The notes below the pieces were generated by a model. That model did not search any database and had not been told where the DNA came from. It saw only the letters and a list, made by a program, of their open reading frames with translations. A program made the position numbers and the translations under genes. A DNA stretch of 64,000 nucleotides from Apostichopus japonicus. Taxonomy: Eukaryota > Echinodermata > Holothuroidea > Aspidochirotida > Stichopodidae. Positions 8,945 to 64,000 of this stretch are shown piece after piece; within the stretch, counting starts at the first letter, position 1; each line of letters opens with the position of its first letter. The DNA lies in assembly GCF_037975245.1 (NCBI RefSeq), contig NC_092583.1:8074764-8138763 (forward strand), in the 5' to 3' direction.

Positions 8945-9060
8945 GAGAATCTCTGGACATACAATCACCGCCCATAGCCTAGTTGGTTAGGGTGTCCGCA
9001 TACTAAGCGGGAGGCCCGGGTTCGAATCCCGGTGGAGGCTGGAAGTTTTTTCATTATTCT
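8945..9060 (+). repeat. tRNA-headed SINE copy
   Basis: 8968-9040 folds like a tRNA. It has a perfect Pol III A box (TAGCCTAGTTGG, 8975-8986), a perfect B box (GGTTCGAATCC, 9019-9029), a 5-bp anticodon stem with 7-nt loop ATACTAA (anticodon ACT) and a 5-bp T stem. The acceptor stem is mismatched (CCGCCCA against TGGAGGC). A leader, CTCTGGACATACAATCACCG, precedes the tRNA part and recurs at 9333-9352 with only the start of the tRNA region. Mismatched acceptor, extra leader and second copy all favour a SINE over a functional tRNA. Confidence 0.7.
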
Positions 9061-12897: not shown

Positions 12898-14035
12898 AAT
12901 AAGACCGGGTAAATAACCCATTTTAAGTTCAAGTAACTCCAAATGACGATAAGGTACCTACAATTCGAAGACCGATAAACACAAATTTCATTAGCCGTGT
13001 ATGTAATCAGGGGACCGAATAGTCAAGCATTCTTAACAAATGAGAAGTTCTGTACAAACAGGGATATCAAATGTTTTCACCCCCCCCCCCATTCCCAAAA
13101 GAAATGAATAATAGAATAATATAACCTATTATCTATGATCGCGTTTGGGAGAATTACCGGCAAATTTCGTAGAAGTAGAACAATTTATTTCACATTGACA
13201 AACAACGCAACGAATTAAAAAAGTAGTACAGGATATTTATGTTTCCTTCATTTTCTGACAGTATTTTATACTTATATCCCTTTTCTCATTCTGTTCTCAA
13301 GTCTCCCTTTCAGTAGCCTAGGCTACGAAACATATTACAAGAAAAAAATCCCAAATAATACAAATAATGAGATCAGAACGGTGCTTGTTTGAATCTGTAA
13401 TAGAAAAGGCTGATTGGCCCATTTTAAGTTCAAGTATAACTCCAAATAACGATACGGTACCTACAATTCGAAGACCGATAAACACACATTTCATTGGCCG
13501 TGTTTATAATCAGTGGACGGAATAGTCAAGCATTATTAACATGGGAGAGATTCTCCACAAAAAGGGTTATCAAATGTATTCATCTCCACCTCCCCCCCCC
13601 CCCACACCCGTCAAAAAAATAATTAGTAGAAATAATATAACCTATTATCTATGATTGCGTTTAGGATCATTTCCAGCAAATTTCGTAGAAGTAGAGTGAT
13701 TCACATGGACAAAAAACGCAGAGACTAAAGAAAGTAGCATAGGCTATTTATGTTGTCTTCGTTTTCTGACAGTATTCTGTTCACAGAGCGAAAAACTTTC
13801 ACCCCTTTCGCATTATGTTCTTTTGTAAACCGGTCGATTTTAATCAACTGGAATTTATTTAGCTGCATTCAGATTCAATTTGAATTCAGATTTGTTTGAA
13901 TCTGTGATAGAAACGGCTGATTAACCCATTTTAAGTTCAAATAACTCTAAATAACGATACAGTACCTACAATTCGAAGACCGATAAACACAAATTTCATT
14001 GGCCGTGTATATAATCAGGGGACCGAATAGTCAAG
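12898..14035. repeat. Roughly 505-bp tandem repeat, two full units and one truncated
   Basis: The landmark CCCATTTTAAGTTCAA recurs near 12917, 13418 and 13926. It is followed each time by CGATANGGTACCTACAATTC-like sequence, GAAGACCGATAAACAC and a block ending AATAGTCAAGC. Units 1 and 2 also share a poly-C run, a TATAACCTATTATCTATGAT stretch and TTTCGTAGAAGTAGA. The third unit stops exactly after AATAGTCAAGC at about 14035, where the BEL/Pao sequence begins. Confidence 0.88.
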
Positions 14036-14657
14036 CCTCTCCAATTTGAAAAACGTTCAAAGCGATGAGCACCTAAAACAACATTTGATGATTTTGTGAG
14101 CATGGTAGTGACGGCAAGTCGAATTTCAGAATATGCTACAGGTTGCACAAGGTCATAGTTGTTCACCTCAAGCAGTTCTTGGCGGGACAGAAACCCCGGG
14201 CCTGTAAACCACATACTATCGTGAAGCTCATGTGCTGCAATGGATCTAGAGGCCAAGTCTGCAGGATTTTGTTTAGTAGCAACGTAACACCACTGTTCTG
14301 GACGTGTTGACTGTCTGATGCGATTTACTCGATTTGATACGTAAACATAGAAACGTCTGGTAGTGTTGTTAATGTAACCAAGGACGATCTTACTGTCTGT
14401 GAAAAACCTTACAGTATCTATCTCTAAATCAATTCCATCACTGATGTACTCATACAACTCCATTGCCAACACTGCAGCGCATAACTCAGTCGGGGAATTG
14501 TGTGGGCTAGTTTTGGTGCTAATTTCGCTTTTCCCAACAAGAATCCGACTTGACAATTTCCTTCTTCGTTGACAACTCTGATGTACGCCACTACTCCAAT
14601 GGCAACTGTAGAAGCATCAGAAAAGATACAGAATTCCTTCTTTTTAGTCAACGACAA
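14036..14657 (-). pseudogene. BEL/Pao RNase H domain with start of following linker
   Basis: The first catalytic Asp lies in FCIFSDAS (about 14610-14635). A frameshift near 14500-14560 separates it from the rest. The Glu is in ELCAAVLAMEL, the next Asp in FFTDSKIVLGYI and the last in NPADLASR, so all four metal-binding positions of the RNase H fold are visible. Downstream residues (WFTGPGFL, then FERFSNW) match the RNase H to integrase linker. No integrase zinc finger or DDE core follows. Confidence 0.82.
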
Positions 14658-29242: not shown

Positions 29243-31041
<1,799 letters not shown>

Positions 31042-32512: not shown

Positions 32513-33590
32513 GTTATTAAAGGAGACACTAACCCAACCATTGTTATTGGTCTATGTGACAACGATGGCTGTCATGAACACCGCCCCCCCCCTTCTACCT
32601 CCACAGCCAAAGGGACAGTAACCCAACAATCATTATTTTAATAAAGATAGCTGTCATGAACAACCCCGACCCCCTCCCAACCTCCACAGCCAACAAGACA
32701 CTAACCCAACCCATCGTTATTGGTCTATGAGATAGAGATAGCTGTCATAACCCCCCCCCCCTCCTCCACCGCTTCCCCACCTCCACAGCCAAGGAGACAC
32801 TAACCCTACCATCCTTTATGGTCTATGTTAAAGAGATAGCTGTCATGAACAACCCCACCCGATCCCCCTCTTCCTCCACAGCCAAGAAGACACTAACCCA
32901 ACCATTGTTATTGGTCTATGTGTTAGAGATAGCTGTCATGCACAATCTCTCCCTGGCCCCATCCCCACCTCCACAGCCAAGGAGACACTAACCTTACCAT
33001 CCTTAATGGTATATGTGATAGAGATAGCTGTCATGAAGAACCCCGACCCCCGACTCCCTCCTTACCTCCACAGCCAAGGAGACACTAACCTTACCATCCT
33101 TTATGGTATATGTGATAGAGATAGCTGTCATGAAGAACCCCGACCCCGACTCCCTCCTTACCTCCACAGTCAAGGAGACACTAACCTTACCATCCTTTAT
33201 GGTATATGTGATAGAGATAGCTGTCATGAATAACCCCGACCCCCGACCCCCTCCCAACCTCCACAGCCAAGGAGACACTAACCTTACCATCCTTAATGGT
33301 ATATGTGATAGAGATAGCTGTCATGAAGAACCCCGACCCCCGACTCCATCCCCACCTCCACAGCCAAGGAGACACTAACCTTACCATCCTTAATGGTCTA
33401 TGTGATAGAGATAGCTGTCATGAACAACCCCATCCCCTATACTCCCTCTACCTCCACGGCCAAGAAGACACTAACCCAACCATTGTTATTGGTCTGTGTG
33501 ATAGAGATAGGTGTCATGAAGAACCCCTCCCCGACCCTCTCCCCACCTCCACAGCCAAGGAGACACTAACCCAACCATCGTTATTGGTGT
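32513..33590 (+). repeat. Minisatellite array, unit about 97 bp, about 11 units
   Basis: Each unit runs ACAGCCAAGGAGACACTAAC, CATCCTTAATGGTATATGTG, ATAGAGATAGCTGTCATGAA, then a variable C-rich segment. Units differ by point changes (CCTTACCATCCTT versus CCAACCATTGTTATT subtypes). The unit length is not a multiple of three, so the open frames shift at each unit and are not protein-coding. Confidence 0.95.
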
Positions 33591-33618
33591 ATTTAGGATT
33601 TTTTTGGATATTTAGGAT

Positions 33619-59387: not shown

Positions 59388-62095
59388 GGAAGTACCCGGG
59401 ATTTCCTGAGTGCCGGTGTGACAGGACTTTTTCCCCCCTGAAAATATTCCCCCCCGGGTGGAGATTTCCTAGGAAATATTCCCCCCCGGGTGGGCATTAT
59501 TCCTAGGAAATATTCCCCCCAACCTGGAAAAATTCCCCCCCACCTTCATGTAATTCTAGTTAATTATATTTTTGTACACCTATCAAGGATATCTCATCAT
59601 GGAACTATAATAAGGAGATTTTAACATTTTTTGGGCATGAACTTGGAATATATCATTCCTGCAATAAGGATATTCAGAGAAAATGTCTTGGGTTAGGGTT
59701 AGGGTTAGGCCTACACTAACAAGGTTAAAGATTATTATCAACTCCAATCAATGTAGATAGTAAACTTCACTGTGGATAAACTTTATTCTGTGAATGATTT
59801 GAAGAAACATGAAGAAACTGATTGAACACCATTGAATTACTCTTCATGCATCATTAGACAAAGTTACCTGGACTTCCTTGATATGAAATTGGATATTGGG
59901 AGTTGGCTACTGATTTTCTCAACTGGCTAAATTGCACCAATCCTTGCAACTAACTGTCCGCTGGCCACTAAAAAAATGTTGCGAATATGTGAAGGATATA
60001 TTCCTAGCGTTTAATTGCCATGAGCAAGCGATCGACCATCTCATCATACACTGAATTTGAGATATCGCCTATTGGAATATAGGAATATTATGAAATTCAT
60101 TGCAAGCTAAAGACTTGCAGGTGCTGGCAGGAAAATTGATCATGCTTATGGTGGGGGGGGTAAATTTTCAGGGTGGAAGGAATTTATCCTAGGAAAAATT
60201 CCCCCCGGGGGGGAAAATTTTCAGGGGGGGAAATTTCCTGTTACACCGGGTATACTGATCGCCGTCCTGGAGGAGGGGTCTAAGGGGGAGGGGGTGTCCC
60301 CTCTACCGATTTTTGAAGGTGCTCAGATGCCAAATGCTGGCACTTGTGTAGCTTTTTACACAAGTACAATTTACATCTTTAAATTTGTTTTAGTGAAATA
60401 CATTACAAACCTGGTAAAAGTTATGTTTGTTTAAAAGAGATTTTACAAGGGACCGATTGAGAGCCGTAAGTTATGTTTCTCCCATGCGTTTACTGATGCA
60501 TTATTTAGTCTGTATGATTTTGGCATCTAGCTACTGTAGGCCCAATTTATGTTGAATATATTGTTAGGAATGTCGGAATTTTAGATGAAAATAGTGCTGG
60601 GCGGGATTCATGATTTTTAAGACAGTGCTGGGCGGGGATGTTTAGTGCTGGGCGATGCCGCCCAGTGCCGCCCAGCGTGGGCACATCCCTGCATCTGCAG
60701 CAGGGTTTATAAATATTCACACATATACTGTGTATACAGTATATGTGCTATAAGGATGTACAGCACTACATCTCCATCTCTGATGTCATGCCATTCATCC
60801 TGGCACAGTCTTTCATTTTGTCCCAGCTCTATACAAACACATATACTGTAATTTACTTCGTTCCCCACTTACCTGTCTCCCCACAATTACCTATGCACCA
60901 CGTTATCTTAACATTTATTCATATCCTTGAATCATCCTGTGTCCTGTTTTAGTCTTCAAGTTATTGATCAGCTTTTTAGAGCATGGATGTGACAGACATG
61001 ACCGACATAATTCTACACAAGCTGCCAGTTGAATAATCCATCTCTTGGAAGACCGCAAAGTACTTGTTCCGACGACAATGTGGTCGATATTCTACAGTAC
61101 CTGTACATGCAGAAGATGAGCAAGCATGGTTGTGTTTTCTTTTTAGAACCAAAGGAAGTGGAACACATCTGCACAGTTCTAGCAGTCTGTGATGGCATAC
61201 ATATATGCACTTGTTTGTTCTTTGAAACCTTTGCTTTCCCATTTAATATTAATATCTAAAGTTGTTATCGATTTGTCCTTGAATTTTAATAAAAAGTGAA
61301 TATTTGCTTTTAAGCCAGTACTATTCATGTCTCCATCGAGAACGCAATTTTCTGCCGGAACATTGCTTTCTTTTGTGGATAAAACGATTACAAATTACAT
61401 TCCGTTTTGATGATTCTAAATCCCTGTTTGGAAAGTGATTCCCATGAACTGAACATTGTCCATTGAAACCTAAAAATGATAAGACTCTCAGAATTCAAGT
61501 CTTTTCGATGAATCACTCTGGCAGTAAGGATTTAGTTTTCACATCTATTTAGAGTATACAGAGGATAACATTTTTACAGTAATTTGTTTTAAAAGTAAGT
61601 AAGTACTGCATTTAAGATGCAAGCATCAGGGAATAACTTGAAGTTTGTTTCTTAAAATTTAGTTCTATGGTCCATGTGTACAAGACCAGGGATGTAGTGC
61701 TGTACATCCTTATAGCACATTATAAACATAGTATGTGAACATTAACCCTGCTGCAGGTGCTGGGATGTGACCATGCTGGGCGGCACTGGGCGGCCCCGCC
61801 CAGCACTAAAATTACCACCCAGCACTGTCTTAAAAATCGTGAATCACGCCCAGCACTATTTTCATCTAAAATCCTGACATTCCTAACAATATATTTCACC
61901 AAAAAAATTAAAAATGTAAGTTGTTAGCAAAACTAGTGTTTGTGCTTAAAAAAAAGGTGCCAGCATTTGGCATCTGAGCACCTTCAAAAATTGCAAAATG
62001 TCTCAAAGGGGAGGGGCACACCTCCTCCCGCTTAGACCCCTCTCCCAGGACGGCGATCTGTATACCCGGCACTCAGGAATCCTGGACACATCCCT
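59388..62095. mobile_element. Large foldback element, arms of about 400-500 bp
   Basis: The left arm, continuous apart from a nested insertion, runs 59388-59416 plus 60246-60780. The right arm, 61680-62095, is its reverse complement. Shared landmarks are CCTGAGTGCCGGGTATAC, GATCGCCGTCCTGG, GCCAAATGCTGGCAC, AGTGCTGGGCGG and ATAAGGATGTACAGCACTAC. The termini start CAGGGA, as in hAT elements, but no target duplication was found. The central 900 bp (60781-61679) has no recognisable transposase; the frame at 61029-61259 is unidentified. Confidence 0.75.
59417..60245. mobile_element. Nested DNA element, 829 bp, CCGG target duplication
   Basis: It sits in the left arm of the foldback element between CCGG (59413-59416) and CCGG (60246-60249). 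Its ends are TGTGACAGGA and TCCTGTTACA, followed inside by matching C- and G-tracts with CCTGAAAAT blocks. The opposite arm (near 62050-62065) preserves the empty site GAGTGCCGGGTATAC with one CCGG. The superfamily is not identified. It includes a short TTAGGG run at 59694-59708. Confidence 0.82.
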
Positions 62096-62132
62096 GCAAG
62101 ACTGCTGGGTCAGATCCAAAACCTCTGCCAAT

Positions 62133-62690
62133 GTTATGGACGGAATTCACAGAGATAAAGTCCCATAAAAAATAGTGTGAGAGTTAGTATTTGGTGAGGT
62201 ATGCATGATTGATTTAAGTTGGGATACCTCTACCATATTACGGAAAAAAATTAATTGGGTGGTGCAATATTAGTCTGAATATGCAAATTAGGTGTTCGTT
62301 ATGGACGGAATCAGAAAAATGATCAATTCCCACCAACCTTCATAGTGGGTCAAAAGTCTGTGAAGTGTTCAGGATTTCAAAGTTTAAGGTACTTTACATC
62401 ACAGGCCTGGTACCTAAGCTTTATCATACTCCCACTCATAATCTTGAATGTACCTCCATTAACCCACTACCCCAAACCAAAATTCTGTGTTATGGACGGA
62501 ATGTACAACGTTATGGACGGAAGGTTTCGTCCTGATTTAGGATCAACTCTTGAATTGTGAAGTGTGTGTTATAAGTTAATACTTATGGCCAATATGTGTA
62601 ATAATATCAAATAAAATTGAATTTATTACAAGAAGGGAAAGAGCTAGACCTGAAATAGGAATTGTTATGGACGGAATGTTATGGACGGAA
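62133..62690. repeat. Six exact copies of GTTATGGACGGAA
   Basis: Exact 13-mers start at 62133, 62298, 62489, 62510, 62664 and 62678. Flanking sequence is not shared beyond a following T in four cases. Spacings are 165, 191, 21, 154 and 14 bases. The sequence in between is ordinary AT-rich DNA. The function is unknown. The region is downstream of the minus-strand gene at 63200-63490. Confidence 0.9.
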
Positions 62691-62909
62691 AGTATTGAAT
62701 TAGCCTAAAATGAATTGCTATAGCACATGAAAAGTTTCACCCTTGCTGAAGGTACTCATCAGGTGGCTTTCAGCACTATAAGCAGAGGCTGTCAGTACTT
62801 TTCCCATTTGTTTTTTTCACTTTTGTGGCTTCACCCCCTTCAAACAATGCCAATGAAATCAAAGTTTCACCAGTCTGCAAAACTTGTATGAAAGAAAACA
62901 ACACATGCA

Positions 62910-62925
62910 AATATTTTTTATTTTT
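62910..62925 (-). terminator. Candidate poly(A) signal for the minus-strand gene
   Basis: TTTTTTATTTTTTAATT on the plus strand contains AATAAA on the minus strand, about 280 bases after the stop codon of the exon at 63200-63490. Confidence 0.4.
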
Positions 62926-63199
62926 TAATTCAAAACACTTTCAGCTGTAACAAGATGAACCTTATTGTTCATAAAGAAAATTAAACCTTGGACCTGTACA
63001 AGGACAGCAATAGCCCTCTTTAATACATTTTATAAAGGTTATGAACGAGAACATCAGTAAACTTTCAACACTTTAACATTACCACAAAAACTGTGGACAT
63101 GGGAGGCCTGTATGGTTGAACAGTCATGAAAATTTGAAATAGACTTTTCAATCTTAACAAAATACATCGATTCATGTTTGTCAAAATTTTCCGTCACCA

Positions 63200-63490
63200 T
63201 CACGGCTCACAATCTCTTTGAAACTTGTCCCTAATATATTCAACCACCTTTGTTGCAATTCCCACTTTGCTACTTGAAATTGGGAGGACAGGCTGTTCTA
63301 GTTTCCCCATGATCATTCCTAGTGGTATCCAAGATTTGTCTTCAGGTGATGGCCAGAAGAAAGTATTGGTAGGGCCCTTAGGGTGTAGGAAGGAGACATA
63401 GACATCATTATTGTCAACTGATATTTGGTCCACCTTTTCCAACCACCAGTCTCCTTCATACACAAAAACCACATTGCATGAGGATGACAA
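63200..63490 (-). CDS. Terminal exon of an uncharacterised protein
   Basis: The minus-strand frame opens at an AG (CCCTAATCCAAG|TTGTCATCC), read as a splice acceptor, because no ATG begins it. It runs to TGA at 63200. Residues include NVVFVYEGDWWLEKVDQISV, then VYVSFLHPKGP, FFWPSPEDKSWIPLGMIMGK and VVEYIRDKF. The YEGDWW, FLHPKGP and WPSPEDKSWIPL pattern is that of a C-terminal domain common in uncharacterised, often transposon-linked animal proteins. A Tudor-like barrel is possible from the alternating hydrophobic strands, but that is inference. The frame is intact with no stop, and a poly(A) signal lies downstream on the same strand. Upstream exons would lie to the right; none is visible in the last 500 bases of the window. 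Confidence 0.6.
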   Translation of the reverse strand: MSSSCNVVFVYEGDWWLEKVDQISVDNNDVYVSFLHPKGPTNTFFWPSPEDKSWIPLGMIMGKLEQPVLPISSSKVGIATKVVEYIRDKFQRDCEP

Positions 63491-64000
63491 CTTGGATTAG
63501 GGTCATTCCGTGTCAAATCACGGATGGCTGTTGCTGCACCCTCTCTAAAAATTCCCAAATGTTTTGTATGATTGGACCATCATGAAATAAGCATATCCTG
63601 AAAATTTCAGTTGCATTGCTTTACAATTGGCCGATTTATCACACTTTGAAATTACGCAATTTGTCGCCACCATGGCATTTTGGCATTTTCTTGACTTTTG
63701 AGGTCTCATTTCTCAGCAATTAAACATTCTACTACCTTTCTATTACAGATGCCTATAGAGTCTATCCCATAGAATAGGAAAATAAAAAATTAGGCTACAA
63801 AAATATTGTCTTGTGGAGTTAGGTCAACTTAAAAGTGTCAAAATATTCGATTTTGTACTTTTCACTAAAAAATGTGCTACTTTTAGTGATGAATTGCTCC
63901 TAAACCATTGCTTCAGGGTACTTGATTCTTTCAGAGGTTATTATGTCTGGTACAACCATTATAAAATAATGATTACAATGCTTTCCTATGATATTTTTGC
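63491..64000. other. Probable intron of the minus-strand gene
   Basis: No frame or motif supported. The phrase GGGTCATTCCGTGTCAAATC at its left edge is of a kind often seen in dispersed animal repeats. Confidence 0.35.

Follow-up and report, generated by a model that had tools for sequence, protein, structure and literature searches.

Six identical 13-bp words in the Apostichopus japonicus genome form the subterminal repeats of one end of a DNA transposon

Results

The locus and its cluster of identical words

The window analysed here is a 64-kb stretch of the Apostichopus japonicus genome (C23:8074764-8138763), whose features include a one-piece EamA/SLC35F-like transporter reading frame on the plus strand (30058-31041; EamA, E = 4.5e-26), a weak match to a Pao-type retrotransposon peptidase on the minus strand (13996-14556, below the cut-off) and a 97-bp tandem repeat (32520-33592; ~11 copies; longer periods, 193 and 290, are also seen). 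The only Rfam match in the window is a tRNA at 8970-9040. Between ~59396 and 62082 lies a long inverted-repeat, foldback-like element, whose arms pair 60546-60772 with 61691-61905 (~86%) and 60246-60404 with 61888-62069 (~73%), and which carries TTCCTGAGTGCCGG at 59403-59416 and its complement at 62066-62079. A smaller inverted-repeat element, at ~59417-60245 inside the left arm, has the ends TGTGACAGGA...TCCTGTTACA, CCGG flanking it on both sides, and many TTCCCCCC blocks. About 25 bp beyond the foldback-like element begins the transposon with which we are concerned here.

As the first-pass annotation of this DNA had reported, exact matching finds the 13-mer GTTATGGACGGAA six times in the window, always on the plus strand:

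62133..62145, plus strand: subterminal site 1, GTTATGGACGGAA
62298..62310, plus strand: subterminal site 2
62489..62501, plus strand: subterminal site 3
62510..62522, plus strand: subterminal site 4
62664..62676, plus strand: subterminal site 5
62678..62690, plus strand: subterminal site 6

Under a dinucleotide model, 0.0014 exact occurrences would be expected on both strands of the window, and beyond these six there is no further place in the 64 kb with two or fewer mismatches. The description of a constant word amid unrelated spacers likewise held: between -30 and +44 around the words, no column outside the 13-mer agrees in more than four of the six copies, and none of 20 local alignments between spacers stands out from shuffles (lowest p = 0.19). 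Because the flanks disagree and the spacers do not align, the six words are not the remains of a long, degraded tandem repeat, the structure named in advance as evidence against a selected site; the one exception is the final two words (62664 and 62678), which form a 14-bp tandem pair. Nine regions of the window contain at least three exact 12-mers inside 700 bp, and on our reading the GTTATGGACGGAA cluster is the only one that belongs to neither a tandem array nor an inverted-repeat array. No further 9-mer in 62083-63200 was enriched beyond Markov resamples.

The words lie at one end of a dispersed transposon

We searched the genome (671,581,487 bases, 671.6 Mb, in 35 contigs) for the word, a count that the first-pass annotation had proposed, and found 313 clustered exact occurrences (151 + 162), compared with 15 (6 + 9) for the reversed control pattern. 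Among the first 100 matches listed, most recur as six words with the spacings of the window or nearly so, followed in most copies by three more words ~1.6-1.9 kb on, in the order -, +, -. Eleven copies, chosen for many exact words, were fetched from the genome together with a split 10-kb copy (L019 and L020). The eleven measure 2735-3054 bp and have abrupt boundaries, with GGGTCAG(A/T)TCCAAAACCT at one and AGGTTTTGGATCTGACCC at the opposite one: the ends, GGGTCAG...CTGACCC, are sharp, and the flanks beyond them are unrelated and differ between copies. Ten of these copies are 96-99% alike, and the eleventh (L014) shares their ends and differs in its middle (~81% over all aligned columns). Terminal inverted repeats (TIRs) of 18 bp are present in all 11 copies, chosen as they were for many words, and at both ends of the 10-kb copy. 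The window copy spans 3044 bp, with its first base at 62107 and its last at the equivalent of 65150, 1150 bases past the end of the window, and has TGCT on both sides; the following of its features lie within the window:

62103..62106, no strand: left target site duplication TGCT; its partner adjoins the right end and is not within the window
62107..62124, plus strand: left TIR GGGTCAGATCCAAAACCT, 18 bp; its partner lies past the window and ends at the equivalent of 65150
62107..64000, no strand: in-window stretch of the non-autonomous transposon copy (3044 bp in full)
63200..63496, minus strand: remnant C-terminal coding piece of a presumed transposase, 98 amino acids, also encoded by the 10-kb relative
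63498..64000, no strand: start of an internal filler unrelated to the 10-kb relative, continuing past the window to ~64393

A census that does not depend on intact words was made by DNA search with the left end of the window copy. It recovered 37 left ends, one truncated and 36 full length or nearly so (the worst covering query positions 7-595) at 94-100% identity, and GGGTCA opens 35 of the 36 in this unpicked set. Right-end stretches were obtained for 24 further copies, of which 18 are complete, five stop short of the last base at one end and one has no right end within the stretch obtained. Exact 4-bp target duplications flank 25 of the 30 complete copies (10 of 12 and 15 of 18), and in the remaining five the two flanks differ at one base of four (four copies) or at two (one copy); when left and right flanks were instead taken from different copies, four bases agreed in 8 of 132 pairs. 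Ten of the 25 exact duplications fit AWWT (ATAT six times, AATT twice, AAAT and ATTT once each), and those outside this pattern include ATGT, TACT, TACA, AGAT and TGCT. The target duplication of hAT elements is 8 bp, and the target of Kolobok and piggyBac elements is TTAA. On these family rules, hAT is excluded by the 4-bp duplication (of 12 copies checked, ten share 4 bp and none shares 8 bp), and Kolobok and piggyBac are excluded by the finding of no TTAA flank among the 30 complete copies.

The transposon family takes in 292 of the 313 exact words, 196 at left ends and 96 at right ends. The truncated copy contributes one further word, and the ~20 words outside the family are near the 15 of the reversed control. 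Inspection of isolated words covered all seven such loci among the first 100 matches listed: one is a truncated copy, one a 199-bp minisatellite and five are unrelated to the element. The minisatellite (L029, C6:12577200-12580400, positions 1345-1876) carries the exact 13-mer in two units and altered forms in others; we rejected it as a second family bearing the word, and its 13-mer is probably there by chance. The GTTATGGACGGAA words thus make up the subterminal repeats of one end of a DNA transposon of cut-and-paste type, which has dozens of copies in this genome.

Coding remnant and internal filler

The 10-kb copy (L019 and L020, C7:4161986-4171995) shares with the window copy the left part, to element position 1391, and the right part, from position 2314. 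On the strand that corresponds to the window's minus-strand reading frame it encodes WSDGCALKQFKSQY...HGKGPVDGVGGQVK and, after this, the C-terminus that window 63200-63496 also encodes. The minus-strand reading frame, taken in the first-pass annotation for a gene with the words in or beyond its 3' region, is therefore that of a mobile element and not of a host gene, and the 13-mer does stand beside the same coding remnant in both the window copy and the 10-kb copy, within one and the same element. Positions 8185-8535 of L019 contain a WSDG...HGKGPVDGVGG block, of which the SDG...HGKGPVDG portion is, we assume, part of a DDE/D transposase core. Because no Pfam family passed the cut-off for the coding pieces, the SDG...HGKGPVDG piece included, the presumed transposase is so called from its place and its motifs. 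For the 98-aa remnant neither Pfam nor the solved structures in the PDB returned a match, and its predicted structure (mean pLDDT 38.3) is too poor to use. The next coding piece of the 10-kb copy has a weak Tudor_4 match (E = 0.083, below the cut-off), no upstream exon was recognised by eye among the reading frames of at least 50 amino acids in that copy, and a search of viral contigs gave no relatives of two coding pieces.

The first bases of the filler recur at the same place in all five other copies examined for them (L010, L015, L016, L018 and L021). The filler, which in L009 runs on to ~2457, opens with GGGTCATTCCGTGTCAAATCACGG, and GGGTCA is common to its start and to the TIR of the element; the only exact TGACCC in L009 is the element's own right end. 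The filler may have been captured from another transposon. Alignment of L014 with the 10-kb copy gives a single long block on the left and one on the right, a pattern that would be expected of a plain internal-deletion derivative, whereas copies of the window type have foreign filler between their ends. The family copies found here look non-autonomous.

Layout and conservation of eleven sites

In element coordinates, the left sites of the window copy start at 27, 192, 383, 404, 558 and 572, and the right sites at 2472(-), 2492(-), 2515(-), 2685(+) and 2854(-). The six direct sites of one end and the five, of mixed orientation, of the other keep this arrangement across the family. Left sites 1-6 are exact in 32, 32, 34, 32, 32 and 34 of 36 left ends, and three of the right sites are exact in 31, 33 and 32 of 35 right ends. 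The other two (2472 and 2515) have the variant GTTATGGATGGAA, a C-to-T change that is itself kept in 32 of 35 and 35 of 35 right ends. The site pairs 383/404 and 2492/2515 lie within a 44-bp inverted match (84-86%).

In a first test, on the 11 fetched copies, mismatches occurred in 4 of 1287 motif cells (0.31%), while random spacer blocks averaged 1.66% (p = 0.0018), a result biased because these copies were picked for exact words. Across the 36 left ends, 23 of 2808 motif cells (0.82%) and 336 of 18554 spacer cells (1.81%) were mismatched, with a permutation p of 0.07 (0.16 for variable columns alone, 0.21 for singletons alone). At the non-CpG columns of the left ends, the mismatches numbered 7 of 2304 (motif) versus 303 of 18339 (spacer). 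The right ends gave 15 of 2251 versus 274 of 18207. Over both ends, 13 of 120 non-CpG motif columns vary, compared with 222 of 1038 in the spacers (Fisher p = 0.003), and with all columns included 24 of 143 vary, compared with 229 of 1051, which is no significant difference (p = 0.10); in all such tests the columns are not independent, because the copies share descent. Among the copies of this one genome, the expectation that the word would be kept better than its surroundings is therefore borne out outside CpG columns and is not significant when all columns are counted. We regard this as moderate evidence for constraint on the motif among copies. Different in kind, and stronger though no test, is the observation that nine of the 11 sites inside one element are identical while everything around them differs.

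Discussion

Of the origins that the first-pass annotation had offered for the words, a selected protein-binding site fits best, in the form of transposon subterminal repeats, and the protein is most likely the transposase. More specifically, it is very probable that the six words, as left-end subterminal repeats of an element with 18-bp TIRs and a 4-bp target duplication, are sites of its own transposase. The transposase of a full-length relative would bind each 13-mer through its DNA-binding part, several molecules would gather on each end, and the gathered transposase would pair both ends and then cut next to the TIRs. Such an arrangement has precedents: subterminal repeats bound by transposase are described for Herves, Ac, Tol2 and Tag1, and multiple transposase sites adjoining TIRs are called frequent (PMC3143072); another report warns that such subterminal sites can inhibit as well (PMC11707139). 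The window copy has kept both ends and roughly the last 98 codons, its middle being unrelated DNA; as a non-autonomous copy with a filled middle, it would therefore need protein made elsewhere in order to move.

The same subterminal repeats might instead serve a host factor, or act as promoter or enhancer sites of the transposase gene, which we consider unlikely. Both ends have sites, and those of the right end point either way, as enhancer-like sites may, and the direction of coding would put the start of the gene towards the right end; however, the larger group of six sites lies where the coding region finishes, and not where it would start, and the reported frequency of multiple transposase sites beside TIRs (PMC3143072) also counts against a host factor. 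Equally doubtful is a more elaborate version of the transposase reading, in which the element would represent an undescribed lineage. Its transposase would assemble on an array of unusual length and unequal ends, with six direct 13-bp sites over ~560 bp at one end and five of mixed orientation, two of them the nearly fixed C-to-T variant, at the other, and this array would set the order or orientation of end pairing.

A far smaller chance attaches to the words being an element in the 3' UTR of a host gene, where UUCCGUCCAUAAC would be read six times as a site for an RNA-binding protein or small RNA. The minus-strand reading frame does end at 63200 with all six words in one direction on that strand, and AATAAA occurs on the minus strand at 62922 and 62627, the first of which, at least, would lie upstream of the words. 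The existence of copies with defined ends and target duplications largely refutes this reading: the reading frame belongs to the transposon and recurs in its 10-kb relative, and the same words occur in both orientations at the other end. Nor is the RNA-binding site that the first-pass annotation also proposed supported, as predicted folding of the region's RNA does not surpass that of shuffled sequences (z = 0.33; 11 of 20 were as stable or more so). Least credible of all is the suggestion, from the same annotation, of micro-dispersal, in which the 13-mer inserts or is copied alone and so leaves six exact copies amid unrelated spacers, since it is a whole 2.7-3.05-kb unit that has been copied, the spacers travelling with the words in 36 left ends (94-100% identity), and the isolated loci among the matches listed (one of seven a truncated copy, one a minisatellite, five unrelated) and the ~20 words that the family does not account for, a number close to the 15 of the control, also speak against it.

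As subterminal repeats of a transposon, the words have several parallels. Maize Ac/Ds (hAT), like the window element, combines short TIRs with subterminal repeats; unlike Ac/Ds, the element has its own motif and TIR, 4-bp duplications and no hAT domain in the coding pieces searched. Among Ds elements, the Ds-del and Ds2 classes include internal-deletion derivatives, as well as derivatives that keep ~0.5 kb of each end around unrelated internal sequence (PMC3260210): the former resemble L014, and the latter are much like the window copy. Herves and the window element both carry a short subterminal motif at both ends and differ in the motif, its length and the hAT duplication; the Herves motif is CG/AATTCAT and is bound by the transposase (PMC3143072). 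Galileo, of the P superfamily, has several transposase (THAP) sites near its ends within long TIRs (PMC3688188), unlike the window element, with its TIR of 18 bp and sites internal to the TIR. Sola elements are described as having a DDD transposase and 4-bp duplications (PMC10741241), and Sola2 elements as having 4-bp AT-rich duplications (AWWT in some) and short TIRs, of 12-21 bp in the Fanzor-carrying elements of amoebozoa (PMC3627910). That our element is Sola2-like is a guess, in which the likeness rests on the length of the target duplication together with the short TIR, and is limited, since AWWT describes no more than 10 of the 25 exact duplications. Literature searches with two 12-mers of GTTATGGACGGAA returned titles on Salmonella, Setaria and rabies virus and none on transposons by title, and a search for subterminal repeats in combination with sea urchin found nothing. 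Viral and prokaryote sequence collections contained no close pair of GTTATGGACGGAA words, and window 60200-63500 had no phage DNA match.

The transposon family is apparently young and otherwise ordinary, and the finding of a transposon end does not overturn known biology. It does explain a striking cluster of motifs, and it is a caution against taking clusters of this kind for UTR codes. The family, which has 30 complete, similar copies and 11 fixed sites, would offer a handy natural data set on the maintenance of subterminal arrays, and binding tests could use the 13-mer directly as a probe.
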